Shown piece after piece: positions 2,164 to 19,742 of a stretch of DNA of 20,251 nt. A program made the translations under genes and the position numbers. How positions within the stretch are numbered: position 1 is the first letter of the stretch; the number at the start of each line of letters is the position of its first letter. Under the pieces are notes generated by a model. It saw only the letters and a list, made by a program, of their open reading frames with translations. It was not told the DNA's origin and ran no database searches. The stretch covers positions 1 to 20,251 of the IMG/VR virus record IMGVR_UViG_3300044627_003797. The stretch is one strand, 5' to 3'. The stretch comes from a virus.

Positions 2164-4575
2164 TTATATATATAGTTTTTTAATCAGCGTCTTGTATACT
2201 GATTCTTTTACTGTTGAAGCAACTATGGATTGTGGTAAACCGCCGGCTGAATTTATAACTTTAGCGAAGATATCTAGATTTTCTTGAGAAACGTCTTTGC
2301 TAGCTATACTATTAGCAAGAGAAGTAAGAACCCTGTCGGGTTCTGAGCCGGGATACATTTTTTCCAAAGCTGGTTTTAAAAATTTATTGTAATATTCTGG
2401 ATCCTCAAGTTTTTCTATTAAATTTCCATATCCAAGTGATTGATTTAATGTTTTTAACTGTTCACCAGTTATATTTTTAAGACCACTTACAGCGGTAGAC
2501 GCAACGTTTGTTACTGCCTTTCCAGCTTTTGTTGCCAGCTTAGCTAAAGCATCTTCATCAACTGCATTTCCCATCTGTTTAGCCACACTCATTGCAACGT
2601 GTGCAGCCTTCGCTTCATCCGGAGTCAATTTATCAATAACATTTACGCCATTTATAGATATTGGTATATGACCTCTTAATTCAGCAGTCAAATTGAGTGT
2701 TTTTGTTCCAACTCCTGAATAAAATTGTTGTTTATCAATTATTCCGGCATCCAGAGCTGTTTTCAAGATTCTATATTGATCTTCGCCTCCTCTACCCGAT
2801 ACCAAAAACTTTTGCATATAGTCATCTGCTGCTTTTGCATCTCCGCCCAGTGCGAGTTTTCCAAGTTCTTTTAGGGATTGTGTAGCACCAGTTGCTGTGC
2901 GTGTTACGGCTTGTGATGCTACATCTGCTGCATTTGATGTTGATTTGGATGCTGCTCCATTCAATATTCCTCTGTTTTTTACTCTACGTGACATCCAATC
3001 TAACCATTTATCAGTATGAGACTCTCTAGCATCAAACCAATCACTAAATGAATCTATTTGTCCTGCTTTTTCACCTACAAGTTTTTTTACTATGGCGTTG
3101 ACTGCATTTTCATCATATCCTTTGGTTTTGAGAAATGATTTGAGAACTTCTATACCATCATTGTTGTCAACAGTTTCTGCAAAATTCTTGAGCTGATCAG
3201 CAAAATCATTTGGTTTTAATTTCATCAAATCAATATCAGCAATTGTATTTGATGCGCCTATTTTCATTGCACTTGCTGCATCTGCAGCTACATTTAATAA
3301 ATTTTTAGGTAATCCACCTGCGCCATTAATAACAACGCTAATGTCATCGTTGGCCGTTAATCTAAGATATTGTTTTATTCCTGACAAGTCTGCACTAAAA
3401 TTTTGTGATTCTGCTTCTTCTTTAAAAGCGTCATACAATTTTTTATTTGTACTGATAATATCAAATAACTTTGTATTACCACCCGGAAGCTTGCTAACCA
3501 TTAATTTTGATATATCAACTTCAGATACTTCGACATTTCCACTGATAACGTTTTTATCTGATATAGCAGTCGCCGCATCTCCTGTAAAGTAAGATTTAGC
3601 ACCGTCAATAAATCCCCCGCCTTTGAAGTAACTAAATAATCCTTTTGTAAGTGATCCACCAACTAAAGATAAACCTGTGACTACTAATGACTTCTTAAAT
3701 GCTTCTCCCCAAGTTTCTTTTTTGAGATAATGACCAGCGACTGTTCTTATTAATAAACCAACGAAAACGCCGATTGCCAATGATGTGCCTACAGTAGCAC
3801 CCGCGAATGATACCGATAACATTTTTGTGATGTTAATTAACAAACCGATTATTGTATTGGTCCATTTTGGATTCAACTTTGTAAAATCTTGTAATTTGCT
3901 CAACATTGATGTTCCAGAAGAATCAGTCTCATATGTTATGGTACCATCAGCTGCTCTTTTCGCAATCTTCATACTTGGGCCCAATTTGGCCATTATCATT
4001 TGCCAAGCTGATCCTTGTTTTTTAGCGTCTAAAATATCTGATTTTAATGTAGACGACCACTTTACAAATCTATTGAGTGCATTTACCACAATTGATTGAA
4101 ATAAAGTTATTGCAATCTGGCCAGCTTTACCACCCAATTCTTTTGTTTTTAATGCGGCCTTTTGAATGATGCTTGGCTCGGCTCCAATATTTTTTGGTAA
4201 CGATATGTCTTTTAGTCTTGCATCAGAACCAACATTATCTAGATATTGTTTATTATCTGTATGGAATTTATTGATTAGAGATAATATCTTTTTTGAAGTA
4301 TCCGCTGTTGATACTGGATCGGTGGCGGCTTCTACTAACAGTGATGTGTCTGAAATTTGTTGATTGTGTTTGTATATTTCTCTTAATGTTTTGCGGGTAC
4401 CAACACTTAGTTTAAATTCTGCTAAATGTAGAGTGTTATTTTCTATACATCCGTGTAGAATAGATAATTCATTTAACATTCGATTGAATGTAAATTCGGA
4501 TTTTTTAAAATTATCAATCTCTCGTTTAGATAAATTCAGATTTAACCATTGATTTTCCCCCAATAAAGATATCAT
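2164..4575 (-). CDS. Large protein with hydrophobic helices, probable virion or ejected protein
   Basis: This is an 803-residue protein of unrecognised family. Residues 1-150 are helical and charged. Residues 152-172 are moderately hydrophobic. Residues 240-282 and 296-316 are strongly hydrophobic, Gly/Ala-rich and long enough to span a membrane. The remainder is Ala, Lys and Asp-rich and helical. No signal peptide or catalytic motif is apparent. It is first in the leftward block and directly precedes the collagen-like gene. A TATTTATT box lies four bases before its ATG (4580-4587), with no Shine-Dalgarno. Large Ala-rich phage proteins with buried hydrophobic helices are often tape-measure or internal ejected proteins. 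Either is possible, but nothing here is decisive. It shares an Asp-Lys-Leu-Thr-Pro-Asp-Glu stretch with the collagen-like protein. Confidence 0.8.
2167..2174 (-). promoter_or_regulatory. TATWWATA start box of the collagen-like gene
   Basis: TATATATA on the minus strand, four bases before the ATG at 2162, overlapping the last codons of the upstream gene. It fits the box found before most block-leading genes here. It could be chance, because these codons also encode Leu-Tyr-Ile-stop. Confidence 0.35.
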
Positions 4576-4579
4576 ATTT

Positions 4580-4587
4580 AATAAATA
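4580..4587 (-). promoter_or_regulatory. TATWWATA-like start box of the leftward block
   Basis: TATTTATT on the minus strand, one mismatch from TATWWATA, with AAAT between it and the ATG at 4575. No purine-rich ribosome site precedes this start. It is a candidate late promoter or SD-independent initiation element. Confidence 0.45.
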
Positions 4588-4620
4588 TATAGATGTAAAT
4601 AAATGTTGATTAAAATAAAG

Positions 4621-4649
4621 TTGACATAGTTGTTATTTGTATGTATTAT
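4621..4649 (+). promoter_or_regulatory. Sigma70-like promoter of the 4727-5151 block
   Basis: The -35 box TTGACA (4621-4626) is a perfect consensus. A 17-base spacer follows, then TATTAT (4644-4649), one base from the -10 consensus. A start site near 4656-4657 is expected. It lies in the divergent region between the leftward block and the small genes at 4727 and 4918. A host-polymerase early or constitutive promoter is the natural reading. Confidence 0.75.
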
Positions 4650-4657
4650 CAGATTAT

Positions 4658-4682
4658 GTTCTGAGACTGGTAATCTTAGAAC
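4658..4682 (+). promoter_or_regulatory. 5'-end hairpin of the rightward leader RNA
   Basis: GTTCTGAGA (4658-4666) pairs with TCTTAGAAC (4674-4682) in a 9-bp stem with one G-U pair and a 7-base loop. It begins nine bases after the -10 box, so it would lie at the extreme 5' end of the transcript. There is no U-run after it, so it is not an intrinsic terminator. A 5' hairpin protecting mRNA from decay is a plausible role. The same arrangement occurs at 12739-12760. Confidence 0.6.
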
Positions 4683-4715
4683 TCGTAAATATATTACCAC
4701 GTTTAAATATTAAAG

Positions 4716-4723
4716 TATAAATT
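4716..4723 (+). promoter_or_regulatory. TATWWATA-like start box before the 63-residue gene
   Basis: TATAAATT, one base from the T4 late-promoter core TATAAATA, three bases before the ATG at 4727. This gene would then have two possible modes of expression: a longer RNA from 4621-4649 and this start-proximal box. Confidence 0.35.
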
Positions 4724-4726
4724 AGT

Positions 4727-4918
4727 ATGACAGTTAAAAGTGACAGTGTTATAGATAGCAATATTAAGTACGTAATTCTACGTGATGGCAGACGAGTTTC
4801 AGATTTGGAATATGTTTCCAAAGTCGAAGCTAAAACTGAATATGAACATTGGTCATCAATCCTTAATCGGTGGCCTGATGGATCTAAAATTGAAATTGTA
4901 GAAGTGAAAGGTAAATAA
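4727..4918 (+). CDS. Small protein, function unknown
   Basis: This is a 63-residue soluble protein with no signal peptide or membrane helix. The middle contains Arg-Asp-Gly-Arg-Arg-Val-Ser and a later Trp-Pro-Asp-Gly, which suggests short beta turns around a helix. I do not recognise a characterised family. It is the first gene after the sigma70-like promoter and its 5' hairpin. Its stop codon overlaps the next start (TAATG at 4916-4920), which points to translational coupling. No clear Shine-Dalgarno precedes its ATG; only an AAAG about ten bases away is visible. The tight overlap, normal composition and operon position support a real gene. Host-directed early function is one possibility given the promoter, but this is inference. 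Confidence 0.7.
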   Translation: MTVKSDSVIDSNIKYVILRDGRRVSDLEYVSKVEAKTEYEHWSSILNRWPDGSKIEIVEVKGK

Positions 4919-5151
4919 TGAGTGGTAATATATTTGGCTTAAAACAGAAGATTAACGCAGCTAGCACAGAAAAAGAAGTATTAGATTTATTACAGTTGAG
5001 CAAAACATTTGTAGATGCGTCTCCAGAAACAATTCGTTCTTGGAAAAATTCATCCACAAAAAAATTACATCAGTTAAATTCAACTAAACCAGCAATAGAA
5101 AATGTTGAAACTGACAACAATAAACCCGTAAAGAAGAAAAAGAAAAAGTAA
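4918..5151 (+). CDS. Small basic-tailed protein, function unknown
   Basis: This is a 77-residue protein. Residues 1-45 look helical (a Leu-rich segment with Asp-Leu-Leu-Gln-Leu). It ends in a run of lysines after Lys-Pro-Val, which could bind nucleic acid or simply be a disordered tail. The start is set by a good ribosome site: GAAAGG (4906-4911) six bases before ATG. The block GAAAGGTAAATA is identical to the one before hsp20. It overlaps the upstream gene by one base and is followed by a strong terminator (5174-5206), so it closes a two-gene unit. I do not recognise the family. Confidence 0.7.
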   Translation: MSGNIFGLKQKINAASTEKEVLDLLQLSKTFVDASPETIRSWKNSSTKKLHQLNSTKPAIENVETDNNKPVKKKKKK

Positions 5152-5173
5152 GAGGTGGTTAAATTGATTGTGA

Positions 5174-5206
5174 AAAGACGTTACTTCGGTAACGTCTTTA
5201 TTTTTT
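5174..5206 (+). terminator. Rho-independent terminator with UUCG tetraloop
   Basis: AAAGACGTTAC (5174-5184) and GTAACGTCTTT (5189-5199) are perfect 11-bp arms around TTCG, closed by a C-G pair. This is the extra-stable C(UUCG)G loop. A TTTTTT run follows after one A. It ends the 4727-5151 unit. Confidence 0.93.
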
Positions 5207-5212
5207 CTTATA

Positions 5213-5220
5213 TACTTATA
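5213..5220 (+). promoter_or_regulatory. TATWWATA-like start box before the 5222 gene
   Basis: TACTTATA has one mismatch from TATWWATA. It is one base before the ATG at 5222 and four bases before the second in-frame ATG at 5225. The four-base gap is commonest at the other boxes, which favours the second ATG as the real start. It lies just after the terminator. Confidence 0.4.
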
Positions 5221-5221
5221 T

Positions 5222-5575
5222 ATGATGATAGATAAATACTCTTCATTAACTTTGCCATCTGATTATAGTCAGATGGAGGGTTTGATTAAAGTCAATAAAA
5301 TTAAGTTGATGGAACAAATTGTTTCGTCTATATGTTACGCGGTGAAGAACAATTTGAATGCGATAGAGGTCTTTAATTTTAAAGATTCTGATTTCATAGT
5401 AGTATTAGTCCGTGATTCATTTGAAAGTAATTTAAATAGCATTTATAATTACTATATCTCATCTGAGACATATGAACATTGCGGACGTGTTTTAAATATT
5501 AAACAACAACTAAACCAAAAAAATGAACAAGAAAAAAGACACAAGTCCAAAGGTTCACCAAAACGAAAAAATTAA
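5222..5575 (+). CDS. Small protein upstream of and overlapping phoH, function unknown
   Basis: This is a 117-residue protein (116 if the adjacent ATG at 5225 is used). Residues 20-80 alternate helix and strand, with Phe-Ile-Val-Val-Leu-Val as a probable core strand. The C-terminal 20 residues are Gln, Lys and Arg-rich. The last 53 bases overlap phoH in another frame, so the basic tail may largely reflect constraint from the phoH N-terminus. There is no signal peptide, membrane helix or known motif. It opens a new unit directly after the 5174-5206 terminator. No Shine-Dalgarno is present. Family not recognised. The upstream terminator and box support expression. Confidence 0.65.
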   Translation: MMIDKYSSLTLPSDYSQMEGLIKVNKIKLMEQIVSSICYAVKNNLNAIEVFNFKDSDFIVVLVRDSFESNLNSIYNYYISSETYEHCGRVLNIKQQLNQKNEQEKRHKSKGSPKRKN

Positions 5576-6233
5576 AGAATCAGTTAGAATAGATGAACGA
5601 CAACTTACATCTAAACAGATTGAATTATTAAATTTATTACAAAATAAAACAACCAAACTAGTCTTTATTTCTGGGCCAGCTGGAACTGCCAAAACATATA
5701 CGTCAATATTAGCAGGTTTAACCTTATTGAATCATAAAAGGGTGAGTGAAATTATATATGTTAGAAGTATAGTTGAAAGCAGCGATAGTAAATTAGGATT
5801 TTTGCCTGGTGAAATGGATGAAAAAATGAGTCCATACATCCAACCATTGATAGACAAATTAGAGGAATTGTTGCCAAAACACGATATTGATAAATTGAAA
5901 AAAGAGGAACGTATTCACGGATTCCCAATCAATTTTTTACGTGGTTTAAGTTGGAATGCTAAATGTATCGTAGCAGATGAAGCTCAGAATATGAGTAAAA
6001 AAGAACTAATAACATTGATCACACGTGTGGGTGAATTCAGTAAGTTATTTATCTGTGGCGATCCAGATCAAAGTGATATCAACGGTAAAAGTGGATTTGT
6101 GCCAATGATGAATGTTTTCGACGATGAAGAAAGTAGAAATAATGGAATTTATGTATTCAAATTTGATGAAGACGACATTGTTCGGAGTGGTTTAGTAAAA
6201 TTTATATTAAAAAAACTAAAAAACGTTAGTTGA
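5523..6233 (+). CDS. phoH: PhoH-like P-loop ATPase
   Basis: A 236-residue PhoH family protein, a superfamily-1-like P-loop ATPase common in marine phages. Visible motifs are Walker A GPAGTAKT (51-58), a RSIVES-G-LPGEMDEKM stretch (81-102) typical of PhoH, Walker B CIVADEAQN (148-156), and the motif-III-like CGDPDQSD (178-185). The length is that of the phage form, which lacks extra PIN or KH domains. In phages PhoH is used as a marker gene. Its exact role is unsettled, with phosphate stress and RNA metabolism proposed. The start at 5523 lies within the upstream gene (53-base overlap) and has no clear Shine-Dalgarno, so coupling to that gene is likely. The first 20 residues are Lys-rich and poorly constrained, so the true start could be further downstream. 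Confidence 0.95.
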   Translation: MNKKKDTSPKVHQNEKIKESVRIDERQLTSKQIELLNLLQNKTTKLVFISGPAGTAKTYTSILAGLTLLNHKRVSEIIYVRSIVESSDSKLGFLPGEMDEKMSPYIQPLIDKLEELLPKHDIDKLKKEERIHGFPINFLRGLSWNAKCIVADEAQNMSKKELITLITRVGEFSKLFICGDPDQSDINGKSGFVPMMNVFDDEESRNNGIYVFKFDEDDIVRSGLVKFILKKLKNVS

Positions 6234-6241
6234 TTAATAAT

Positions 6242-6249
6242 TATTAATA
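6242..6249 (+). promoter_or_regulatory. TATWWATA start box of the fibre block
   Basis: TATTAATA, an exact TATWWATA match, four bases before the ATG at 6254. The region 6234-6253 holds no Shine-Dalgarno. Candidate late promoter for the four-gene fibre block. Confidence 0.5.
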
Positions 6250-6253
6250 TAAT

Positions 6254-8680: not shown

Positions 8681-8687
8681 TACTTTA

Positions 8688-8695
8688 TATTTATA
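8688..8695 (+). promoter_or_regulatory. TATWWATA start box before the 180-residue fibre gene
   Basis: TATTTATA, exact match, four bases before the ATG at 8700, in the 19-base gap after the large fibre gene. No Shine-Dalgarno. Confidence 0.5.
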
Positions 8696-8699
8696 AAAT

Positions 8700-9242: not shown

Positions 9243-9244
9243 TT

Positions 9245-10735: not shown

Positions 10736-10743
10736 TATATATA
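10736..10743 (+). promoter_or_regulatory. TATWWATA start box before the 648-residue gene
   Basis: TATATATA, exact match, six bases before the ATG at 10750. This is the one box-bearing start that also has a short purine run (AGGA, 10743-10746) between box and ATG. Confidence 0.4.
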
Positions 10744-10749
10744 GGATAT

Positions 10750-12696
10750 ATGCCTGTCAATATATTAAACAGATCTGGTCCATTGAGTTTCAAAAGTGAA
10801 ACAAATAATAGCGAAAATCTTTCGATCAACAGTTTATTAAGCAACGTTTATAATCCAGGCTCAAATAATTTTTCTATATCGCAAAGTTATTACCAATTGC
10901 AAAATAGAATTGGCAATTCAAACTCTGATTCAAGTACGATTAATATTACAAAACCTTTAGGAGTTGGATTCATAAATAAAGACAATCGGCGACCAATAAA
11001 GTTTAGTGAATTTTATGGTGCTTCTTATATAAGTAGTTCTTTCAGTGTAGCTGCTTCTACTGGTGTCGCTACTGTTAAAATTTACTCGCCAAGTGTAGTA
11101 CAAAATAATAACTTTTTGACTAATAATATACAAGACAAAGTTTATCAATACACACTATATTCTAAGTCAGATGTCGTTACACCTATTGTAGATTCTGGGT
11201 GGAATAAGATGTTTTCTTACGCTAAATCAGGTGATAACATTGAATCATTTTATAATTTAGTTAATACAAACGCATATAAATTGGTTTGTAAGGATTGTTT
11301 GTCAAATGCGTTTACATCTAGTATGTTTATAGGCACTTGTACAAGTACGGTTATTGATAATACAACCTATACATACACAATATCCGATGTAGATTTACCT
11401 ACAGCAAGTTCTTTGTTGTTCCAGAAAATAAATAATGATAAAACTACCAATGGGTATACGAATACAAAGATAACAGATTTGTCTACCACATTGAATAACT
11501 TAAATAGTTTATTGCCGAATCCAAACATTACAACTTATAAATCGAGTGGACAACTTTTGCCAGTTATATCATATAAAGACAATTTAGGATATACTAGAAC
11601 GTTGACCTTCGCTGGATTGATTTTACAAAAATCAACCACCCCTGATGGTCCACTTGGATATTTTTATACTGGATTGGTAACAGCTACTAGCTTAGGCGGA
11701 ACAAATCCTACATACCAATACTCGTTTGAAAATACATCAACATTTGGTCAAATTACACTTTACATTTTAGGTGATCAAGATTCAACTACCTCAACGTGTA
11801 CGGCACTACCAACACTAGTTGGTAATTTTCCAACCAATATTTCATTTACAGGCCCAAGATGTGGTTACTTGGATTGCGGAGATGGTTATACTCAACCAGT
11901 TTGTAATCCAACTACAACTACACAAATAAAACACAGTGGTAGTTTCATAATGACAAATAATAACAATGCGGAGTTATTAGCTACTATCAGTCCTACTTGG
12001 ACTAACTTAGATGGAACTGCTTTAAATTCGTTAATTAGTACCGTTGATTTTACTCCAACTGGGATGTTTTCTATTTCAGCTAACAGTACACGTAAAATTA
12101 ACATTGGTTTTGGGATTTCTAATTATCAAAATACACTTCAGCCAAAAACCTTTACTGCTAAAGGTTCGGTTAGTCTAACCTTACCACCAGGATATTCACC
12201 GCAATCACAGAATTGTGAAATTATAGCTAGTTTTGATAAAAATTCATGCGTTATTTCTCCGGTAACACCCACTGTAGTTACGCCTGTAACAAGTAATTTA
12301 GGATGTGTAAATTACAATTCCAATATGTTGGAAAGTTGGACGCAGATAAAATCTGGTACCGTGGTAATAATTGCCTATAAAACTGGTACATCGGCTGATA
12401 AAACTTTTGCGAAGGCGGTTGTCAATGCTTTACCAAATACAGAATGTACATTACCTACAACTATATCCCAAGATGGATATACCATTAATATTTCTTGGAC
12501 AGTAGATCCAGCTGGCGATCAGTCATATGATTGTACATCTGGACAATTTTCAGGCACTTATACAGTTGTAACAAGCAATGCTATATTAGGAAATGCAAAG
12601 TTTTATATCTTATTTTTGAGAAGAAATAATAATAATCCAAATGCTGAAAATTACATCAATTTATGCCAAACAGGCGGAGTTTCGTCTGTTGGATAA
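10750..12696 (+). CDS. Cysteine-rich structural or adhesin protein of the fibre block
   Basis: A 648-residue protein rich in Ser, Thr, Asn and Tyr, last in the fibre block. Residues 70-92 hold Lys-Pro-Leu-Gly-Val-Gly-Phe-Ile…Pro-Ile-Lys-Phe-Ser-Glu-Phe-Tyr-Gly-Ala-Ser. This resembles the short 'Ile-Ser-Phe-Ser-x-Phe-Tyr-Gly' element I associate with aquatic phage fibre and structural proteins. The remainder looks like several beta-sandwich domains. There are 13 cysteines, including Cys-Lys-Asp-Cys and a cluster with Cys-Gly-Tyr-Leu-Asp-Cys-Gly-Asp-Gly-Tyr…Val-Cys near residue 375-390. That is unusual for a protein assembled in the cytoplasm; metal binding or post-lysis disulfides are possible. 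No signal peptide is seen. Virion surface role is inferred from position and composition. The next unit's promoter begins six bases after the stop. Confidence 0.75.
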   Translation: MPVNILNRSGPLSFKSETNNSENLSINSLLSNVYNPGSNNFSISQSYYQLQNRIGNSNSDSSTINITKPLGVGFINKDNRRPIKFSEFYGASYISSSFSVAASTGVATVKIYSPSVVQNNNFLTNNIQDKVYQYTLYSKSDVVTPIVDSGWNKMFSYAKSGDNIESFYNLVNTNAYKLVCKDCLSNAFTSSMFIGTCTSTVIDNTTYTYTISDVDLPTASSLLFQKINNDKTTNGYTNTKITDLSTTLNNLNSLLPNPNITTYKSSGQLLPVISYKDNLGYTRTLTFAGLILQKSTTPDGPLGYFYTGLVTATSLGGTNPTYQYSFENTSTFGQITLYILGDQDSTTSTCTALPTLVGNFPTNISFTGPRCGYLDCGDGYTQPVCNPTTTTQIKHSGSFIMTNNNNAELLATISPTWTNLDGTALNSLISTVDFTPTGMFSISANSTRKINIGFGISNYQNTLQPKTFTAKGSVSLTLPPGYSPQSQNCEIIASFDKNSCVISPVTPTVVTPVTSNLGCVNYNSNMLESWTQIKSGTVVIIAYKTGTSADKTFAKAVVNALPNTECTLPTTISQDGYTINISWTVDPAGDQSYDCTSGQFSGTYTVVTSNAILGNAKFYILFLRRNNNNPNAENYINLCQTGGVSSVG

Positions 12697-12702
12697 AAAA
12701 TA

Positions 12703-12731
12703 TTGACATTTTTCAGAAGTTCGTTTATATA
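12703..12731 (+). promoter_or_regulatory. Sigma70-like promoter of hsp20
   Basis: TTGACA (12703-12708), 17-base spacer, TATATA (12726-12731). This is the same architecture as 4621-4649. The expected start site is near 12738. It follows the end of the fibre block with no recognisable terminator between them. Confidence 0.72.
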
Positions 12732-12738
12732 TATTTTT

Positions 12739-12760
12739 AGATAGTACGTGTGTATTATCT
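12739..12760 (+). promoter_or_regulatory. 5'-end hairpin of the hsp20 leader
   Basis: AGATAGTAC (12739-12747) pairs with GTATTATCT (12752-12760) in a 9-bp stem with one G-U pair and a GTGT tetraloop, starting eight bases after the -10 box. No U-run follows. It mirrors the hairpin at 4658-4682 in length, wobble content and position but not in sequence. A weaker second hairpin (12764-12784, ATAG/CTAT and CTC/GAG) lies next in the 90-base leader. Confidence 0.6.
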
Positions 12761-12828
12761 ACTATAGTGCTCGAGTGAGGCTATTAGGTTAATAAGTTCA
12801 ATTGAATTATTAAAAGAAAGGTAAATAT

Positions 12829-13311
12829 ATGTCAGTAATTAAATATAGTCCGTTTGCATTACGTCACGTTGATCGTGATGAGTTTTTAACGCCATTTGAC
12901 CGTGTATTCGATGAAGTATTCGCGGCACATTTCCCAGAATTAAATAAAGAATTGGGAGTTGGTTTCTTTGAAAAACAAAGTTATCCACGTGTAGACGTTG
13001 TTGATTACAATGATCGAGTGGAAATTCTAGCAGAGATTCCTGGTCTCTCTAAAGAAGATGTTTCAGTTGATGTACAAGAAAATGTTCTTACTATTAGTGG
13101 TCAAAAGATTAAAAAGATTGATGATAGGGAATTTACAGGAAAGTATATTCGTAGAGAATTAAAACATAGCAATTTCAAACGAAGTTTTACATTAGGTGAT
13201 CAAATTGATCGCAGAAATCCATCCGCAAAATTTGAAAATGGGTTGTTAAAGGTTACATTGTCAAAGATCAAACCTACAATTCCAGAAACCAAAAAAATAA
13301 AGATTGAGTAA
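12829..13311 (+). CDS. hsp20: Small heat-shock protein (Hsp20 / alpha-crystallin)
   Basis: A 160-residue Hsp20 family chaperone. Residues 1-48 are the variable N-terminal arm, with Phe-Asp-Arg-Val-Phe-Asp-Glu-Val-Phe typical of the family. Residues 50-147 are the alpha-crystallin domain, beginning Pro-Arg-Val-Asp-Val, with Glu-Ile-Pro-Gly-Leu-Ser-Lys-Glu-Asp-Val and ending Phe-Glu-Asn-Gly-Leu-Leu-Lys-Val-Thr-Leu. The C-terminal Ile-Lys-Ile matches the I-x-I motif used for oligomer assembly. Such ATP-independent holdases are frequent in T4-like marine phages and may help assemble virion proteins or protect host functions. The start is clear: AGAAAGG seven bases before the ATG. It is a single-gene unit with its own promoter, structured leader and terminator, distinct from the late genes on both sides. 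Confidence 0.96.
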   Translation: MSVIKYSPFALRHVDRDEFLTPFDRVFDEVFAAHFPELNKELGVGFFEKQSYPRVDVVDYNDRVEILAEIPGLSKEDVSVDVQENVLTISGQKIKKIDDREFTGKYIRRELKHSNFKRSFTLGDQIDRRNPSAKFENGLLKVTLSKIKPTIPETKKIKIE

Positions 13312-13337
13312 TATTCATATTCAATCAAGGTTATATT

Positions 13338-13369
13338 AAACCCCGTTCATTTAATTGGATGGGGTTTTT
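13338..13369 (+). terminator. Rho-independent terminator after hsp20
   Basis: AAACCCC (13338-13344) pairs with GGGGTTT (13361-13367). The stem extends inward through a G-T, then TTCA/TGGA with one wobble, giving a continuous 12-bp stem with a 6-base loop. A T-run follows. Confidence 0.88.
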
Positions 13370-13379
13370 ATTTTGTAGA

Positions 13380-13387
13380 TATTTATA
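13380..13387 (+). promoter_or_regulatory. TATWWATA start box before the membrane-protein gene
   Basis: TATTTATA, exact match, three bases before the ATG at 13391 and right after the hsp20 terminator. The extended string TATTTATAGATAT recurs at 15969-15981, also between a terminator and an ATG. Confidence 0.55.
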
Positions 13388-13390
13388 GAT

Positions 13391-14425
13391 ATGATACAGT
13401 TTAAACATTTGGTAATATTCACATCACTTTTAATCGCTGGATGTGCTGCTTATTTTAGCGTATATGGTATAGGATTATTATTTTCAGGCGCAACGATTGC
13501 TGTTATGATAATGGCATCCTCTTTAGAACTGGGTAAATTGGTAACAACATCTTGGTTATTTAGATATTGGAACTATGCTAATATTCTAATGAAAATTTAT
13601 ATGATAACTGCAGTATTCGCATTGATGGCTATAACATCATTGGGTATATTTGGGTTTTTAACGGCGGCTTTTCAAAAATCATCTTTGGAAACTGAATTGT
13701 CATTGAATAAAATTTCAACATTAGAATCTCAAAAAAAAGAAGAGATTGGTAAAATTGAGTCTACAAAAAAATCTATAGAAAAATTGTATACGTTAAGAAG
13801 TAGTCAAGAAAATAGATTAAATGAAGTGCTTACAAATGTACTAATTGCTCGTAATCCAATTCAATTACAAAATATTCAAAATCAAATCAACGATCAAATT
13901 ACAGATCTCAATAAACAGTTAGAAAACGAAAATGATAAAATCAAAACCTATAGTGCTAAATCAACAGCTGTGGATGATGATATTTTCAAGTTAAAGGTAG
14001 ATAACAGTCAGAAGAAAGATATTATAACGTTTAAATTTGTTGCTGATCAATTTGATACAACGATCCAAAACGTAGTAAAGTGGTTTATTGTAGTACTTAT
14101 TACGGTATTTGATCCACTTGCTGTTGTATTATTATTGGCATATAATATAAGCACAAATAAAGTTTATTCAGAAAATGACAAAAATTATGAATTATACAAA
14201 AAACAAGAAAAACCCACAGATGAGTCCGCCGACAAACCAACACATTCAACAGTTGAGCGCATAGTTGAAAAGCCTGTTGAGGTTGAAAAAATAGTTGAAC
14301 GTATAGTGGAAAAGCCTGTTGAGGTTGAAAAAATAGTTGAACGTATAGTGGAAAAGCCTGTTGAGGTTGAAAAAATAGTTGAGCGAAAAGGTAAAACAGG
14401 ATTAAGAGGTATGTTTAGTTTTTAA
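13391..14425 (+). CDS. Four-helix membrane protein with coiled coil and VEK repeat tail
   Basis: A 344-residue integral membrane protein of unknown function. Hydrophobic helices lie at about 6-24, 27-45 and 68-92. A long coiled-coil region rich in Glu, Lys, Gln and Asn spans about 97-195. A fourth helix at 229-252 contains Val-Phe-Asp-Pro-Leu-Ala-Val-Val-Leu-Leu-Leu-Ala, which I recall from uncharacterised membrane proteins of marine T4-like phages. The tail (289-331) is three 14-residue copies of Val-Glu-Arg-Ile-Val-Glu-Lys-Pro-Val-Glu-Val-Glu-Lys-Ile plus a partial, and the protein ends Arg-Gly-Met-Phe-Ser-Phe. The coiled coil lies between helices 3 and 4, so it projects on one side of the inner membrane. 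It opens the block with the late sigma factor. Spanin or holin roles are possible only by analogy; the topology fits neither well. Confidence 0.85.
   Translation: MIQFKHLVIFTSLLIAGCAAYFSVYGIGLLFSGATIAVMIMASSLELGKLVTTSWLFRYWNYANILMKIYMITAVFALMAITSLGIFGFLTAAFQKSSLETELSLNKISTLESQKKEEIGKIESTKKSIEKLYTLRSSQENRLNEVLTNVLIARNPIQLQNIQNQINDQITDLNKQLENENDKIKTYSAKSTAVDDDIFKLKVDNSQKKDIITFKFVADQFDTTIQNVVKWFIVVLITVFDPLAVVLLLAYNISTNKVYSENDKNYELYKKQEKPTDESADKPTHSTVERIVEKPVEVEKIVERIVEKPVEVEKIVERIVEKPVEVEKIVERKGKTGLRGMFSF
14252..14390 (+). repeat. 42-bp tandem repeat (three copies plus partial)
   Basis: Units begin at 14252, 14294 and 14336, with a truncated copy at 14378. Copies 2 and 3 are identical; copy 1 differs at a few positions. 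It encodes the Val-Glu-Lys repeat tail of the membrane protein. Near-identity implies recent duplication, so copy number may vary between relatives. Confidence 0.92.
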
Positions 14426-14458
14426 TATTAAAATAATTTTTTTATCAATTTGTCACGG

Positions 14459-14474
14459 TTACATATATATGTAA
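14459..14474. other. Perfect 16-bp palindrome before the 47-residue gene
   Basis: TTACATATATATGTAA is fully self-complementary and ends eight bases before the ATG at 14483. It matches the inverted repeat at 219-234 at 13 of 16 positions. Position 4 and its partner position 13 are swapped together (G-C for C-G). Candidate operator or hairpin. Confidence 0.45.
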
Positions 14475-14479
14475 TTATA
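14472..14479 (+). promoter_or_regulatory. TATWWATA-like start box before the 47-residue gene
   Basis: TAATTATA, one mismatch, three bases before the ATG at 14483. It overlaps the right end of the 16-bp palindrome. Confidence 0.35.
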
Positions 14480-14482
14480 CGC

Positions 14483-14626
14483 ATGGATGAAACTGAACTT
14501 AAAGAATTGTATAGGCTGATCAAAAGATCATACGACGAATCGTGTTGGAAAACATTGAATGACGCTTTAGACTATATATCGGAATTTGTGGAAGTGGACG
14601 ACGAACTACCTACAGACAATGATTGA
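14483..14626 (+). CDS. 47-residue acidic protein, function unknown
   Basis: A short frame starting MDETELKELYRLIKRSYDES and ending at TGA 14624-14626. The first half is a charged amphipathic helix. The C-terminus is strongly acidic (Glu-Val-Asp-Asp-Glu…Asp-Asn-Asp). There is one Cys and one Trp, and no membrane helix. Support for a real gene: codon use like the neighbours, a start box and palindrome at its 5' end, and an ATGA-type overlap with the next gene (its ATG at 14619 lies just before the TGA). It sits between the membrane protein and a small membrane-anchored protein. Family not recognised. Confidence 0.6.
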   Translation: MDETELKELYRLIKRSYDESCWKTLNDALDYISEFVEVDDELPTDND

Positions 14627-14900
14627 AATTTTGTTATTAATATTACTGTTTATATCAGTAGCAGTTAATGTGTTTTTATTAATCACATCGAAAAAGTTAT
14701 TTAACCAGATTGACATTTTGGAAGACTGGATAATAAACTTTAAAAAATCGGTAGAAAATACTTATAATAAATTGAAAGCTATTGATAACCGTGGTATCTT
14801 TGAAAAAGATGACGACGTTGGTTTTCTCTTTTCCGATTTAAAACAAACAATGGAAACTTTGAATAAAAAAGTAAAAGAAGAAGAAACCGATAACGTTTGA
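14619..14900 (+). CDS. Small single-pass membrane protein with coiled-coil tail
   Basis: A 93-residue protein. I chose the ATG at 14619 over the upstream in-frame ATG at 14586 because translation from 14619 begins directly with the hydrophobic helix (Ile-Glu-Ile-Leu-Leu-Leu-Ile…, residues 2-24). The upstream option would instead add 11 residues lying inside the 47-residue gene. The 14619 start also overlaps that gene's end, which suggests coupling. After the membrane helix come a charged helix (29-55), a Gly-Ile-Phe-Glu-Lys-Asp-Asp-Asp-Val-Gly-Phe-Leu-Phe segment, and a final helix. The layout (N-terminal anchor, helix, short Asp-rich segment, helix) resembles a small uncharacterised membrane protein I recall from marine T4-like phages. 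Function unknown. Confidence 0.75.
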   Translation: MIEILLLILLFISVAVNVFLLITSKKLFNQIDILEDWIINFKKSVENTYNKLKAIDNRGIFEKDDDVGFLFSDLKQTMETLNKKVKEEETDNV

Positions 14901-14908
14901 TATTATTA
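14901..14908 (+). promoter_or_regulatory. TATWWATA-like start box before the late sigma gene
   Basis: TATTATTA, one mismatch, five bases before the ATG at 14914, immediately after the previous stop. No Shine-Dalgarno. Confidence 0.35.
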
Positions 14909-14913
14909 CTTGA

Positions 14914-15924
14914 ATGAAACAAACAAAAAAAAGTAAAGTTGTAAATAAAAAAACGACTAAAGTAGTAGCAGATAAAAAACGTAAAATTACTTCTATGGTA
15001 AATAGTGTTAACAAAAAAATCAAAAAACCAACCAAAATAACATCTTTTAAAAAAGTAGTTACACACCAACCGCCTAAAAAAAATAATAAAGTAAAATTAG
15101 ATATTACATACGAATCTAAAAACTTATCTGAAATTAATGTTCCAAGAAATATTACCAGTAAAGATATAATAGTAATTAATGATCTAAACGCTATTAATAA
15201 AGAAGTAGAAGAATTAACAGATGTTAGAAAAAAACGACGTGGTAGAAACAAAAAAGAAAAGATTTATTTTTCTAAAAAGACTGAGGAAGCAATTATTGAG
15301 TATAATTTAGCAACAGATATGGTAATAAGAAACGAAATATATGAAAATCGTATAAAGTATAGTTTTGATAAATTAGTTGAAAACATATTCAATACATTCA
15401 AATTTACTTATTTTGATAATAGTCCATTAGAAATTCAAAAAGAAACTGTAACGCATTTAGTTTCTAATATGCATAAATTTGAAGCGGGTAAAGGCAAAGC
15501 TTTTAGTTATTTCAGTATTGTTGCTAAAAACTATTTGATATTTCATAATAATAACAATTATAAACGATTCAATCAACATGTAGACATCAGTGACACGCCA
15601 GGTGACGACTGCGTTTGTTTGCAAACAGAAGATGCACATCATAAGACTATTCAAACACAAGAGTTTATGAAATTGTTAATTAACTATTGGGAAAAAAATC
15701 TAACAAAGATATTTACCAAACAAAAAGATCTTAATATAGCATATGCAGTAATCGAATTATTTCGTAGTAGTGATAGAATAGAAAATTTTAATAAAAAAAC
15801 ACTGTACTTATATATAAGAGAATTAAGTAATTGCAAAACACAACAAATTACTAAAATCATTAATAAGATGAAATCATATCAAAATGTAGTTATGAAAAAT
15901 TACGCAGACAGCGGTAAAGTATAA
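14914..15924 (+). CDS. 55: gp55-like late-transcription sigma factor
   Basis: A 336-residue protein related to T4 gp55, the sigma subunit that directs host RNA polymerase to late promoters. Residues 150-225 carry the region-2-like core: Leu-Val-Glu-Asn-Ile…Thr-Phe-Lys-Phe, His-Lys-Phe-Glu-Ala-Gly-Lys-Gly-Lys-Ala-Phe-Ser-Tyr-Phe, Ala-Lys-Asn-Tyr-Leu, then an Asn-rich basic turn. This parallels the Phe-Asn-Pro-x-Lys…Phe-Ala-Phe-Phe…Arg-Ala-Phe pattern of gp55. Residues 295-325 look like a helix-turn-helix (Leu-Tyr-Ile-Arg-Glu-Leu…Thr-Gln-Gln-Ile-Thr-Lys). T4 gp55 is about 185 residues. The extra length here is mainly a Lys/Arg-rich N-terminal extension (1-118), probably disordered and DNA- or polymerase-binding. 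Partners gp33 and gp45 are not in the window. The gene is last in its block, followed by a terminator. Confidence 0.82.
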   Translation: MKQTKKSKVVNKKTTKVVADKKRKITSMVNSVNKKIKKPTKITSFKKVVTHQPPKKNNKVKLDITYESKNLSEINVPRNITSKDIIVINDLNAINKEVEELTDVRKKRRGRNKKEKIYFSKKTEEAIIEYNLATDMVIRNEIYENRIKYSFDKLVENIFNTFKFTYFDNSPLEIQKETVTHLVSNMHKFEAGKGKAFSYFSIVAKNYLIFHNNNNYKRFNQHVDISDTPGDDCVCLQTEDAHHKTIQTQEFMKLLINYWEKNLTKIFTKQKDLNIAYAVIELFRSSDRIENFNKKTLYLYIRELSNCKTQQITKIINKMKSYQNVVMKNYADSGKV

Positions 15925-15941
15925 CACAAAACAAAACAAAT

Positions 15942-15967
15942 AAACCACTCCAAATGGAGTGGTTTTT
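15942..15967 (+). terminator. Rho-independent terminator after the late sigma gene
   Basis: AAACCACTCC (15942-15951) and GGAGTGGTTT (15956-15965) are perfect 10-bp arms around AAAT, with T residues following. It separates the regulatory block from the baseplate block. Confidence 0.92.
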
Positions 15968-15968
15968 C

Positions 15969-15976
15969 TATTTATA
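15969..15976 (+). promoter_or_regulatory. TATWWATA start box of the baseplate block
   Basis: TATTTATA, exact match, five bases before the ATG at 15982 and two bases after the terminator's T-run. It can only serve the baseplate block. No Shine-Dalgarno. Confidence 0.55.
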
Positions 15977-15981
15977 GATAT

Positions 15982-16323
15982 ATGGACTTAAATTTTGAAA
16001 TTTACAAAGGAAAGAATTTTTCGGGTCTTTGTAAGGATATAGTGAAAAATTCAGAGAATAAAAAAGATCAAATCGATATATTAATATCGGAGTTACGGAG
16101 TTTGATCAAAACCATCAATGATGCTACCATCATAGTTCCTATGATTAAAGATTACTATGATGTAGGAATTAAAAACGATGAACAGTTAGTTAAGTTAGCG
16201 TCTGTTGTACAACGTTTGGTGGCTAAAGGTGAAGCTAGCGGCGAAGGTTCTTCTATGATATTAAGTGAAGACGAACGTAAACAATTGATGGAGGAAGTTA
16301 TAACAATCAGTAAAGGCGAATAA
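15982..16323 (+). CDS. Small helical protein opening the baseplate block, function unknown
   Basis: A 113-residue soluble, mostly helical protein. It opens Asp-Leu-Asn-Phe-Glu-Ile-Tyr-Lys-Gly-Lys-Asn-Phe-Ser, then a long amphipathic segment with Ile-Leu-Ile-Ser-Glu-Leu-Arg-Ser-Leu-Ile-Lys (32-43). A Lys-Asn-Asp-Glu-Gln-Leu-Val-Lys-Leu-Ala region lies near 64-73, and the C-terminus is charged. I recall similar short proteins beside baseplate genes in marine T4-like phages, but no function is known to me. It begins one base block before the spike gene (ATG at 16325, directly after its TAA). It is therefore probably co-translated with the spike and may be a baseplate component or assembly factor. 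Confidence 0.75.
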   Translation: MDLNFEIYKGKNFSGLCKDIVKNSENKKDQIDILISELRSLIKTINDATIIVPMIKDYYDVGIKNDEQLVKLASVVQRLVAKGEASGEGSSMILSEDERKQLMEEVITISKGE

Positions 16324-16324
16324 T

Positions 16325-18001
16325 ATGGTAAGCACAGACGTATCCAAATCAAATAAATCACCACAGTTAAATGATCAACAAATAAAAGATTTGGTTGATA
16401 TTCGCTCACCCATACAACTTGCTGTCGTAGTCGATATAATTTTTGACGAAACTCATATAAAATTACAAGATGCGTATAAACAAAAAATAAATCCGCAAAC
16501 GGTTCCGCTTAATTATAAGAATGAACCAGCAAATGAAAACGATGTGGATTTTTCTTATATTGGACGTGCTAAAGTAAGAATATTATCACAAGAAAAAAAA
16601 TCATCGGTTGAAAAATTACCTTGGGCTATACCACTTGAACAAACTATAACACAATATCCACTGGTTAATGAATTGGTATTGGTGCAAAAGGTTGGAAACA
16701 ATTATTATTATAGTAAACCATTAAACAAATTCAACTTCCCCAATAATATTGATTATACAGTTGAAACAGTATATAGCGAAGATGGAACGCCGGCTGTCCC
16801 TTTTTATTTTGATGGTAATAGAGCCACTTATACATCCGCTCCAATTTATTCGAAGTATAATAATATAGGATATGTAGGACAATATTTCATTTCAAATCCA
16901 TTTATACGATTGGTCAAGAAAAATGAAGGGGATACTATAATAGAAAGTAGATTTGGTCAGTCAATTAGATTTAGTGCATATGATGATAATAGACAAAATG
17001 ATAAAGGTGTATATTCATCTTACGATTTGAATGGTAATTTATTGAAAGACTCAATCGGCGGTGGATATGGTAATCCTAAACTTACTATTAGAAATAGACA
17101 ACGAAATATTGCTTTGGATGAACCACAACAATTACATCCTAAGTTGCCACCTATTCGTAAAATTACACCGGTTGAAAAGAATTTTGGCGGACAAATACCA
17201 GAAGATATTAACAACGACGGGTCCACTATTCAGCTAACAAGTGGCAAAACATCAAGTGAATGGAAAACTACAGTTTATAAAAGTATATTTGGTATAACGT
17301 CAAATGGAGAGTCAACAGAAGAACAAATAAGATTCAATCCAAAAGGTTCGACATCATTTAAGTTTCCAACTTTAAACAGCGATCAAATTGTAATAAATAC
17401 AGATAGATTGGTACTAAGTAGTAGATTCGCAGAAACATTACATTTTAGTAAAAAACGGTATGCCATAACTACTGATAGTGAATATACAGTGGATGCTAAT
17501 GATAATGTAGTTATAACTACAAATAATACCGCTTGTATTAATGCGCCACAAATATTTTTGGGACAATATGGAGAAACAAATGAACCAGCATTGTTAGGTC
17601 AAACAACTGTAGATTGGATGTATGATCTTTGTAATTGGTTATTGGACCACGTTCATTGGTCTCATCATGTGCATCCACATCCACATACACATCCTAGATC
17701 AGGAAATGCAACTCCAGAGAATACAAGAGATGCTAATCCAGATCAAACACAAATACCAGTACAACAAATTAAACTACAATTATTAAGAGATAATTTACAC
17801 AAGACACTAAGTAGACGTGTATTTGTTACCGGAGGCGGATATGCGCCTGGTAGCAATGGAGTTAAACCAGCTGGTAGTGGCGGAGAGTGTAAAGATCCAA
17901 TAAAAATTAATACTGTTACAGGTGCTGGAGTTGTGGGGGATTTCAAAGGTAGAAATCGTCGAGAAGGGCCAGTACAAGTCGAATTTGAATTTCAGAATTA
18001 A
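16325..18001 (+). CDS. 5: gp5-like baseplate central spike with His-rich tip
   Basis: A 558-residue protein that I read as the cell-puncturing spike of the baseplate hub. Residues 28-135 form an OB-fold-like N-terminal domain (Leu-Ala-Val-Val-Val-Asp-Ile-Ile…Ile-Gly-Arg-Ala-Lys-Val-Arg-Ile-Leu…Leu-Val-Asn-Glu-Leu-Val-Leu-Val). Residues 200-420 are beta-rich with regular Val/Ile/Thr strands, as in spike beta-helices. Residues 408-456 hold Ala-Pro-Gln-Ile-Phe-Leu-Gly…Glu-Pro-Ala-Leu-Leu-Gly-Gln-Thr and then eight histidines in 15 residues (442-456). T4 gp5 has an internal lysozyme domain; I see none here. Phage spike tips often bind iron through His-x-His. The tail (490-558) is Gly/Lys-rich. 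A ribosome site AAAGG lies eight bases before the ATG. Homology is by pattern, so gene identity is less certain than the baseplate role. Confidence 0.7.
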   Translation: MVSTDVSKSNKSPQLNDQQIKDLVDIRSPIQLAVVVDIIFDETHIKLQDAYKQKINPQTVPLNYKNEPANENDVDFSYIGRAKVRILSQEKKSSVEKLPWAIPLEQTITQYPLVNELVLVQKVGNNYYYSKPLNKFNFPNNIDYTVETVYSEDGTPAVPFYFDGNRATYTSAPIYSKYNNIGYVGQYFISNPFIRLVKKNEGDTIIESRFGQSIRFSAYDDNRQNDKGVYSSYDLNGNLLKDSIGGGYGNPKLTIRNRQRNIALDEPQQLHPKLPPIRKITPVEKNFGGQIPEDINNDGSTIQLTSGKTSSEWKTTVYKSIFGITSNGESTEEQIRFNPKGSTSFKFPTLNSDQIVINTDRLVLSSRFAETLHFSKKRYAITTDSEYTVDANDNVVITTNNTACINAPQIFLGQYGETNEPALLGQTTVDWMYDLCNWLLDHVHWSHHVHPHPHTHPRSGNATPENTRDANPDQTQIPVQQIKLQLLRDNLHKTLSRRVFVTGGGYAPGSNGVKPAGSGGECKDPIKINTVTGAGVVGDFKGRNRREGPVQVEFEFQN

Positions 18002-18006
18002 ATACC

Positions 18007-19254
18007 ATGAGCAATTATTATGTATCTTATAAACAAGTAGTGTCTTGGAATGGCACGGTATTTAATGCTAATCAATATAGAAAAGCAATAAATGCTTTTT
18101 ATTCTAAAATTGATTTAGTTAATCCAAATTTAAAAACTGATCAATCAGCTTCATCTGTATTTGATGTACCCATAAGAAATCTATCACCTGATGCATCTTT
18201 TCCAAGTGAATGGAGTTTTGATTTAAATGGAAACTTTTCAACAACAGTCCGAGATGAAGTATCTGGTCTTTTTAGAGCATTTTTAGTTTTGAGCGGAGAT
18301 GTTAAAGTTCCAAGAATAACGTCAACTGGTAAAACTTTACGAGTAATTATAGCTGCTGCCAATAAAAGTTTAATTGCTATAGGTAAAACTCCTGAAGAAG
18401 CTTTTAATTATGCATTTAAAGAAGCAAGAGAATCTCTTTTACGAACACTAGCAGATCAAATTAATGTGTCGGGTAGGGGAATTAAAGTAGAAATACAAGA
18501 TCCATTTACCGATCCAGATCCAGCGTTGCCTGGTCCGCCTACACAAACGATATCAGGAGTTGCCAATAAAGCTCCTTTGGTAGACAATCCTAACATAAAA
18601 CTCCCCACCCAAGAAGCAAAGGGGTTAGACGCGAATGTAGCGCAACAAGCAGCTTCAAAAACCCAGGGCGCTACAAGTAATACTACGTCTGAAGTTCAAG
18701 GTGCCGCCGATAAAGCACAAAGCGCATTTGGTAAACCGGATGGATTGGGTAAGGATTGGTCGCCTGATAAGTTTAGTCCTGAATCTATAGCTGGAAATGA
18801 AAAAATTGTAAATGCTAAAACAGGTATAATTGAATCCACGTCCAAATTAGCTAAAGGGTTAAAAGGTGGATTGTTAGGTGGTGCTCTTGGTGCTGGAGTA
18901 GGGGCCTTAGCTGGAGGCGGTAAAGGAGCATTAATAGGCGGATTGAGTGGTACAGCACTTGGTGCCGGATTATCTGTTGGTGGTGTAACAGGAGCAGCAT
19001 TAGCCGGTGGTGGATTAGGAGCCGGAATAGGTGGAATAGTTGGGGGTGGAAAAGGTGCTTTAATTGGAGCTGTATCAGGAGGAGCAGTTGGTGCAGCTGC
19101 TGCTAAATTAGCAAGTGTTAAAAAAGGAATGCCTAAACCAAATATACCAAAACCACCCAGTACACCCCGTATCAAGACTATCAAGATACCCAGACCATCT
19201 GATACAAAAGGCGCACAAGCATTATTAAATTTACCTAAATCTCGTTTGGGTTAA
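18007..19254 (+). CDS. Baseplate-block protein with C-terminal glycine zipper
   Basis: A 415-residue protein. Residues 1-165 form a folded domain with Thr-Pro-Glu-Glu-Ala-Phe-Asn-Tyr-Ala-Phe-Lys-Glu-Ala (128-140). Residues 166-283 are a Pro, Gln, Asn and Asp-rich linker. Residues 284-366 are a glycine zipper of hydrophobic Gly/Ala-rich segments, with an internal repeat Gly-Gly-Gly-Lys-Gly-Ala-Leu-Ile-Gly at 303-311 and 346-354. A Pro/Lys-rich basic tail follows. Such zippers insert into or pack within membranes, so a delivery role (tail-tip protein entering the host envelope) is a fair hypothesis given its place between spike and gp25. It begins five bases after the spike stop without a Shine-Dalgarno. 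I do not recognise a named family. Confidence 0.75.
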   Translation: MSNYYVSYKQVVSWNGTVFNANQYRKAINAFYSKIDLVNPNLKTDQSASSVFDVPIRNLSPDASFPSEWSFDLNGNFSTTVRDEVSGLFRAFLVLSGDVKVPRITSTGKTLRVIIAAANKSLIAIGKTPEEAFNYAFKEARESLLRTLADQINVSGRGIKVEIQDPFTDPDPALPGPPTQTISGVANKAPLVDNPNIKLPTQEAKGLDANVAQQAASKTQGATSNTTSEVQGAADKAQSAFGKPDGLGKDWSPDKFSPESIAGNEKIVNAKTGIIESTSKLAKGLKGGLLGGALGAGVGALAGGGKGALIGGLSGTALGAGLSVGGVTGAALAGGGLGAGIGGIVGGGKGALIGAVSGGAVGAAAAKLASVKKGMPKPNIPKPPSTPRIKTIKIPRPSDTKGAQALLNLPKSRLG

Positions 19255-19258
19255 TAAT

Positions 19259-19266
19259 TATATATA
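19259..19266 (+). promoter_or_regulatory. TATWWATA start box before the 156-residue gene
   Basis: TATATATA, exact match, five bases before the ATG at 19272, in the 17-base gap inside the baseplate block. It suggests the block has an internal late start. No Shine-Dalgarno. Confidence 0.4.
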
Positions 19267-19271
19267 ATAAT

Positions 19272-19742
19272 ATGAAAATAGATATATTAAAAGAATTCAT
19301 TAAGAAAACAGTACAACAAGAGGTACGAAACGTAGTACAATCTGAACTTAAACTTCAATTGGCAGAAATATTCTCTAAAGAAGTTATTCAATCCAAGAAA
19401 AAATCATCTGATTCTGATTTAGAACAACAAATTCTAAAAGAATTGGATGTGATGAATGAATCTGCGGTTGTTGAGGAACCAGTTAAACCCACGAAAAAGT
19501 TTGTAAAGTATACCAGTAACCCAATGTTGAATGATATTTTAAACCAAACCACCGGTGGTGTGCCACAAGAAGGCAGTATGGTTAGTATGATGGGTGGATA
19601 TGGAAACAGTACACAAGAAGTTATTACAGAAACCAAAGTGCCTGAAAATGCTCCTGCTCCTGTAAAAGGCGTTTATTCAGCGATAAACAGAGATTATCGT
19701 GCTTTACTAAAAGCAGTGGATAGTAAAAAGTCTAAGGTTTAA
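19272..19742 (+). CDS. Helical baseplate-block protein, function unknown
   Basis: A 156-residue soluble protein. Residues 1-42 form a Lys/Glu/Gln-rich amphipathic helix, probably a coiled coil. Residues 43-75 are disordered and charged. Residues 78-95 hold Lys-Tyr-Thr-Ser-Asn-Pro-Met-Leu-Asn-Asp-Ile-Leu-Asn-Gln-Thr-Thr-Gly-Gly, a phrase I recall from uncharacterised proteins of marine T4-like phages. Residues 138-156 contain Asn-Arg-Asp-Tyr-Arg-Ala-Leu-Leu-Lys-Ala-Val-Asp and a Lys-rich end. Conserved position directly before gp25 suggests a virion or assembly role. No enzymatic motif is visible. Confidence 0.75.
   Translation: MKIDILKEFIKKTVQQEVRNVVQSELKLQLAEIFSKEVIQSKKKSSDSDLEQQILKELDVMNESAVVEEPVKPTKKFVKYTSNPMLNDILNQTTGGVPQEGSMVSMMGGYGNSTQEVITETKVPENAPAPVKGVYSAINRDYRALLKAVDSKKSKV

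Follow-up and report, generated by a model that had tools for sequence, protein, structure and literature searches.

A box set against the start codons of block-leading genes in a T4-like phage, and its probable role as a late promoter of near-leaderless messages

Late promoters of bacteriophage T4 consist of a single 8-base AT-rich -10 box without a conserved -35 element (PMC2988020), and the box, TATAAATA, spans positions -13 to -6 (PMC1524935; PMC2988020). Here we describe a promoter-like box, TATTTATA, that lies about 4 bases before start codons in an uncultured virus record of 20,251 bases (IMG/VR record IMGVR_UViG_3300044627_003797), the whole of which is called the window. T4 resembles the phage of the window in having this promoter layout and a phage-encoded sigma factor of gp55 fold. 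It differs in its word and in the position of that word, as, of the 21 exact sense copies of TATAAATA found up to 100 bases from a start, 19 are 13-34 bases upstream of the ATG, and it is rich in Shine-Dalgarno motifs; a gp45-type clamp was not recognised in the contigs examined here. In Aeromonas phage Aeh1, a diverged gp55 is likewise paired with a diverged late word, which is CTAAATA and not TATTTATA (PMC1524935). In the leaderless genes of mycobacteria and Deinococcus, the start codon stands at the 5' end of the message and translation follows a 70S route (PMC9031893). Those are cellular genes read by a host sigma factor, whereas the genes considered here belong to a phage. The Thermus phage P23-45, which is not a T4-like phage, produces leaderless late messages. 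Its middle and late promoters resemble the present ones in belonging to the extended -10 class and differ from them in being transcribed by the host sigma-A holoenzyme (PMC7403470). Phage transcripts are often leaderless, according to a remark in one paper (PMC5312081). Late promoters with altered words (PMC1524935) and leaderless messages (PMC9031893) are known, but separately, and a literature search that mostly covered sources outside subscription journals returned, in the parts accessible, no account of start codons to which late promoters of the T4 type are fused.

The first-pass annotation of the window had placed seven exact copies of the pattern TATWWATA 3-6 bases before ATGs that lead gene blocks, and had left their background frequency to a statistical test. 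All seven were found in the sequence at those positions, and the test showed enrichment at starts relative to non-start ATGs, AT-words and shuffles. In the window, which has a GC content of 27-38% by 2-kb windows, TATWWATA occurs 22 times versus 9.8 expected, a count reached by 0 of 100 shuffles, and an exact copy is found 1-7 bases before 7 of the 18 called starts versus 0 of 579 non-start ATGs. In G014, an 83-kb contig with 99.8% identity across the entire window, the exact box precedes 15/71 starts versus 11/2607 other ATGs (p=3e-18). The comparison set comprised six other contigs (32-40% GC), in which the box precedes 11-19% of starts versus 0.2-0.4% of other ATGs (p 7e-14 to 5e-24), and a 303-kb relative, in which TATTTATA precedes 25/367 starts versus 7/11528 other ATGs; because of the relatedness among the contigs, the tests cannot be treated as independent. 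Genes were called by a simple longest-ATG method, those less than 100 bases from the edge of a piece or open at the 5' end were excluded from the counts, and genes spanning piece borders are missing because the contigs were read in 20-kb pieces. As an AT-matched control, the 8-mers at gap 4 were counted over 456 leading genes: TATTTATA was present 38 times versus a mean of 0.44 for other 8-mers made of A and T only; the highest other 8-mer (11 times) is an overlapping register of the box, and TATAAATA was present 0 times. The box is confirmed as real and lies far above chance.

The boxes of the window, with the gap between the last base of the box and the ATG, are the following.
15969-15976 (+): box TATTTATA, gap 5 to ATG 15982; TATTTAT[A/T] in 7/7 contig relatives.
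13380-13387 (+): box TATTTATA, gap 3 to ATG 13391; exact in 7/7 contig relatives.
8688-8695 (+): box TATTTATA, gap 4 to ATG 8700; box or a one-mismatch variant in 5/7 contig relatives.
6242-6249 (+): box TATTAATA, gap 4 to ATG 6254; relatives have TATTTATA and TATGTATA variants.
19259-19266 (+): box TATATATA, gap 5 to ATG 19272; kept in most relatives with shifted gaps.
2167-2174 (-): box TATATATA, gap 4 to ATG 2162(-), with an overlapping copy at 2165-2172; kept in G001 and G003.
10736-10743 (+): TATATATA, gap 6 to ATG 10750, with AGGA between; a doubtful member, found among relatives in G001 and G003 only.
4580-4587 (-): one-mismatch box TATTTATT, gap 4 to ATG 4575(-); exact TATTTATA in G003.
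5213-5220 (+): variant box TACTTATA, gap 4 to the likely start ATG 5225.

Of the exact boxes, the six before 13391, 15982, 6254, 19272, 8700 and 2162(-) are kept in orthologues, and that before 10750 is kept in close relatives at most. Orthologues of 2162(-) and 4575(-) that match at the N-terminus were found only in G001 and G003, and both contigs keep the box. Among the one-mismatch copies, those before 4575(-) and 5225 are supported by orthologues, those before 4727 and 14914 are not conserved, and the comparison at 14483 was ambiguous. For the open reading frame called at 5222, orthologues start at the second ATG, with TATTTATT 4-6 bases before it, so that this second ATG (5225) is likely the better start. 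Upstream of the portal genes of related contigs (L129, L136, L142, L159), a conserved TACTTATA variant of the box stands about 15-17 bases before the ATG.

The symmetric pattern TATWWATA conceals an asymmetric word. Of 98 near-start occurrences, 74 read TATTTATA, 16 TATATATA, 7 TATTAATA and 1 TATAAATA; the word on the sense strand is [A/C]TATTTATA (74 to 1), in which TATTTATA is the T4 box TATAAATA in reverse complement. The first-pass annotation had equated the box with the T4 word, which the direction counts correct in detail, and TATAAATA as the sense box was ruled out (1/98 vs 74/98). After the removal of near-identical upstream regions, the 74 sites were reduced to 57, at which the base preceding the box is A (75%) or C (23%) and the gap to the ATG is 4 in 33 cases. 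The profile upstream of these 57 non-redundant exact sites is flat and shows no -35 signal, so that a -35 partner was rejected; its eight box positions are fixed by selection, because it was built from exact sites. An expectation-maximisation fit without this selection yielded similar motifs, with a second motif mixed in for G001 and G007. A T directly before the ATG was considered as a signature of the start site and dropped, being equally common without the box.

The box marks genes that lead blocks. Among genes starting at most 8 bases from the upstream gene, it is present in 3/178, while it is commonest at distances of 9-25 bases (28/75); operon-internal genes are mostly without a Shine-Dalgarno motif and almost without a box. 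Exact-box genes carry a Shine-Dalgarno motif in 4/92 cases (6/92 with a wider window). The anticorrelation between the two signals that had been put forward for testing holds in direction, with 4/89 leading box genes versus 48/367 leading non-box genes, but is a modest effect (p=0.024; p=0.0013 over all genes); in G014, the motif is present in 1/15 box genes versus 10/56 others. Boxes located 8-45 bases upstream have a Shine-Dalgarno motif more often than near boxes (8/25 vs 6/92, p=0.0019). At the sheath gene, the box lies 31-34 bases upstream in 5/6 contigs (53 in G009), and GAAAGG stands between it and the ATG.

Intrinsic terminators abut some of the boxes, and two were recognised in the window by reading.
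15945-15967 (+): intrinsic terminator made up of a stem (15945-15962) and a T-run, ending one base short of the following box.
13341-13369 (+): intrinsic terminator made up of a stem that includes G-T pairs and a T-run, upstream of the box at 13380.
Terminators just upstream were detected at 10/92 box genes versus 3/310 other leading genes, with a shuffle mean of 0.2/92. For the gene after the sigma gene (start 15982), 31/37 distinct orthologous segments have the full series of stem, T-run, box and ATG, and in them the sequence of the stem varies and its pairing is kept; at the 13391 gene, orthologous terminators are present in G001, G003, G007 and G008. Only 13-15 bases, box included, separate the T-run from the ATG of the gene after sigma, so that a message made beyond this terminator has at most ~13-15 leader bases wherever it begins. 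Such a space, too short for a leader, was seen at this gene and at a minority of other genes.

Two isolated phages, Flavobacterium phage immuto (Immutovirus) and Microcystis phage Mel-JY01, have the same sigma family and the same TATTTATA word at other distances. In immuto, 16/23 copies are found 10-25 bases upstream of the ATG and 4 at no more than 4 bases from it, so that four genes have near boxes; in Mel-JY01, 11/16 copies lie 27-52 bases before the ATG and near boxes are absent. Compared with background, immuto has mostly fewer Shine-Dalgarno motifs (AGGA 10 vs 19.2) and Mel-JY01 has more (41 vs 7.5). Three sequences entered the comparison across phages in part: P-SSM2 (200 of 252 kb), LR756508 (100 of 484 kb) and G006 (300 of 304 kb). 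A likeness of another kind was found in Pelagibacter phage HTVC008M, in which a box lies within 7 bases of 5/172 starts, all at gap 5, versus 3/5417 other ATGs; the difference is that this box is T4's own word TATAAATA and that Shine-Dalgarno motifs are abundant elsewhere in the genome. These five boxes (L213-L215) may indicate leaderless late genes in a pelagiphage. Late-promoter prediction failed in a survey of pelagimyophages (PMC7029224), and boxes set against start codons are one possible reason for this.

A candidate reader of the box is encoded in the window, and its relatives are encoded in 201 viral-contig stretches.
14914-15924 (+): gp55-like sigma factor of 336 aa, proposed reader of the box (AlphaFold model and structural alignment).
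The AlphaFold model has a mean predicted local distance difference test score of 62.8, with much of the core at 80-90. Its best structural alignment is to T4 gp55 in an open complex (7d7c_F; Z 11.1, 111 residues, root-mean-square deviation 4.6), and the remaining entries of the list are nearly all sigma factors. Beyond the part aligned with gp55, a C-terminal helical part (residues ~238-333; window 15625-15912) loosely aligns with two-domain sigma factors and is perhaps, as modelled, a region-4-like helix-turn-helix. When solved structures were searched with a profile of the sigma alignment, three T4 RNase H entries were returned at E ~0.5, taken as noise. The immuto relative matched the PHROG late sigma weakly, at E=0.5.

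We favour, with a probability of about 80%, the reading that the box is a late promoter consisting of a -10 element and fused to the ATG, that the phage sigma is probably its reader and that the resulting messages are near-leaderless. In this model, [A/C]TATTTATA would supply the -10 element of a late promoter that has no -35, and which the gp55-like sigma (14914-15924) would probably recognise on the host RNA polymerase, and the promoter would have been shifted up against the start codon in this phage group. As the box lies about 4 bases before start codons, the message would begin almost exactly there, without a normal ribosome-binding leader; if the box spans -13 to -6 as in T4, a gap of 5 puts +1 at the A of the ATG, and a gap of 4 moves it on by one base. 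Messages would thus start at this A or a few bases off and would be translated through the leaderless route, in which the ribosome binds a 5'-terminal AUG, while operon-internal genes without a box would depend on Shine-Dalgarno motifs or on translational coupling. Several results weigh against this reading. The word differs from T4's TATAAATA, and three of the listed boxes (10750, 4727 and 14914) are kept in close relatives at most. Foldseek with the sigma model returned no match at E<=0.001 (its top ten were sigma factors); the encoded gp55-like sigma of the first-pass annotation is upheld by the fold alignment, but its sequence similarity is weak, hhalign with gp55 giving P=2.4e-4 and a probability of 44%, and the family hidden Markov model matching a 115-aa gp55 fragment at E=1.9. 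The gp45-type clamp (PF02916) was recognised in 0/8 contigs, which may be fragments, and in 0/2 isolates (immuto, Mel-JY01), compared with 1/1 for T4. Furthermore, operon-internal genes have little space for a box, 17/25 far boxes also lack a Shine-Dalgarno motif, and a terminator was detected at only 10/92 box genes.

One alternative, already raised together with the late promoter in the first-pass annotation, is a Shine-Dalgarno-independent translation element, in which UAUUUAUA in the RNA before the AUG would aid ribosome binding on messages with longer leaders. The tight spacing between box and ATG, the AT-rich context and the scarcity of Shine-Dalgarno motifs in box genes would suit such an element. 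However, the distance from box to ATG varies between phages and among genes of one phage, the word has a strict direction, operon-internal genes, most of them without a Shine-Dalgarno motif, are also without the box, and terminators leave no more than ~13-15 bases before the ATG. Taken together, the distances in the isolates and at the sheath gene, the operon-internal scarcity and the terminators favour a promoter with little or no leader and make the translation element unlikely; the near-leaderless late promoter therefore stands as the better of the two proposals, with its start sites and late timing still conditional.

Slightly less improbable, and still unlikely, is a promoter that starts at the ATG and is read by a host sigma factor rather than by that of the phage. 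In favour of this reading, the link between the phage sigma and the box is indirect, and the sequence similarity of this sigma to gp55 is weak. Against it, early-type promoters of the same contigs have TTGAC and TAnnnT while box promoters are without a -35, two isolated phages of the same sigma family share the word, and phages without this sigma (T4, Syn9, S-TIM5, P-SSM2) do not show the word near ATGs. That TATTTATA is the reverse complement of TATAAATA could also point to T4-type promoters on the opposite strand, from which antisense transcription would run away from the gene; with a fixed distance to the downstream ATG and conservation of the box together with the downstream gene, this is very improbable. 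Chance in AT-rich sequence, for which the low GC content of the window and the unconserved boxes at 10750, 4727 and 14914 could be cited, is contradicted by the controls with non-start ATGs, AT-words and shuffles; as a general account it was ruled out and has a negligible probability, although it may hold for these three sites.

The same contigs carry promoters of a second type that abut start codons. The arrangement TTGAC-N15-20-TAnnnT, then 5-11 bases, then ATG was found at 69/634 genes in the six contigs (31 in G001, 16 in G007, then 9, 6, 4 and 3) and at 0 genes with the pattern shifted 30 bases upstream. It is present 27 times in the 303-kb relative, 2 times in the near-identical contig of the window, 3 times in G011 and 0-4 times in other phages (4 in HTVC008M, 2 in P-SSM2). 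The commonest distance from the -10 to the ATG is 9 bases, from which we infer a leader of ~3 bases, and the genes are short (medians of 64-108 aa per contig). Short genes arranged in arrays, each preceded by a TTGAC...TAnnnT promoter of its own that ends 5-11 bases before the ATG, are present in L139 (G007, 1-13 kb) and, in like form, in L148 and L150 (G001, 68-78 kb and 104-109 kb), with recurrent endings such as TAGGATATATCCACG-ATG and GGTAAAGTAA. Two early-type promoters with longer leaders were recognised by reading in the window.
12703-12731 (+): early-type promoter TTGACA-N17-TATATA of hsp20 (12829), leader ~90 bases, with GAAAGG.
4621-4649 (+): early-type promoter TTGACA-N17-TATTAT upstream of 4727, leader ~70 bases.
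The GAAAGG before the hsp20 ATG is kept in 5/5 contig relatives with an orthologue. Early-type and box promoters are significantly separated along the contig in 3/6 cases (p 0.0018, 0.0028, 0.0002), the other three giving p 0.057, 0.13 and 0.79. DNA polymerase B, sought as an early marker, was found in 0/6 contigs, and PHROG scans of 10 G007 box genes and of 10 early-type genes assigned few functions, so that late timing is argued from position and from a few structural genes.

The early-type promoters abutting ATGs suggest a host that readily translates leaderless messages. TTGAC promoters would argue against a Bacteroidota host. In bacterial and archaeal genomes, the sigma had a single match (64% identity) in one scan, on a 3.4-kb peat contig (L226) in a Methanoregulaceae bin, which is probably a misbinned piece of phage; as host clues, WhiB was found in 0/14 records and Photo_RC in 0/12. 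We give even odds to a wider scenario, in which a whole T4-like lineage that includes the 303-kb member would use leaderless or nearly leaderless messages in two programmes, the early one (TTGAC/TAnnnT promoters) and the late one (own sigma, TATTTATA). The late sigma would have diverged to read TATTTATA and would carry an extra C-terminal helical domain, and leaders would have shrunk from ~35 to 12 to 0 bases, as the comparison with Mel-JY01 and immuto suggests, while phages adapted to the differing translation initiation of their hosts. The finding would join T4-type late transcription to leaderless translation. Since phages must fit the ribosomes of their hosts, the spacing between promoter and ATG across a phage family could serve as an indicator of the mode of translation initiation in an unknown host, and the box provides a model of start codon and promoter for annotating a sizeable group of uncultured phages.

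The phage of the window is considered T4-like because related contigs carry gp23 (11/12), a T4-type portal (5/6) and a tail sheath (6/6); family matches in the window itself are to PhoH, Hsp20, a tail-fibre protein and a gp25-like baseplate protein. The portal match at G008:C1:69752-72001 lies inside an open frame of 1365 aa, about twice the 631-648 aa of four other contigs. In the tail-fibre gene at 264-2162(-), which has family matches, collagen-like repeat stretches were recognised by reading at window 868-1137 and 1617-1859, and near the end of the 13391 open reading frame, tandem in-frame KPVEVEKIVER-like repeats were noticed by eye at window 14258-14380.

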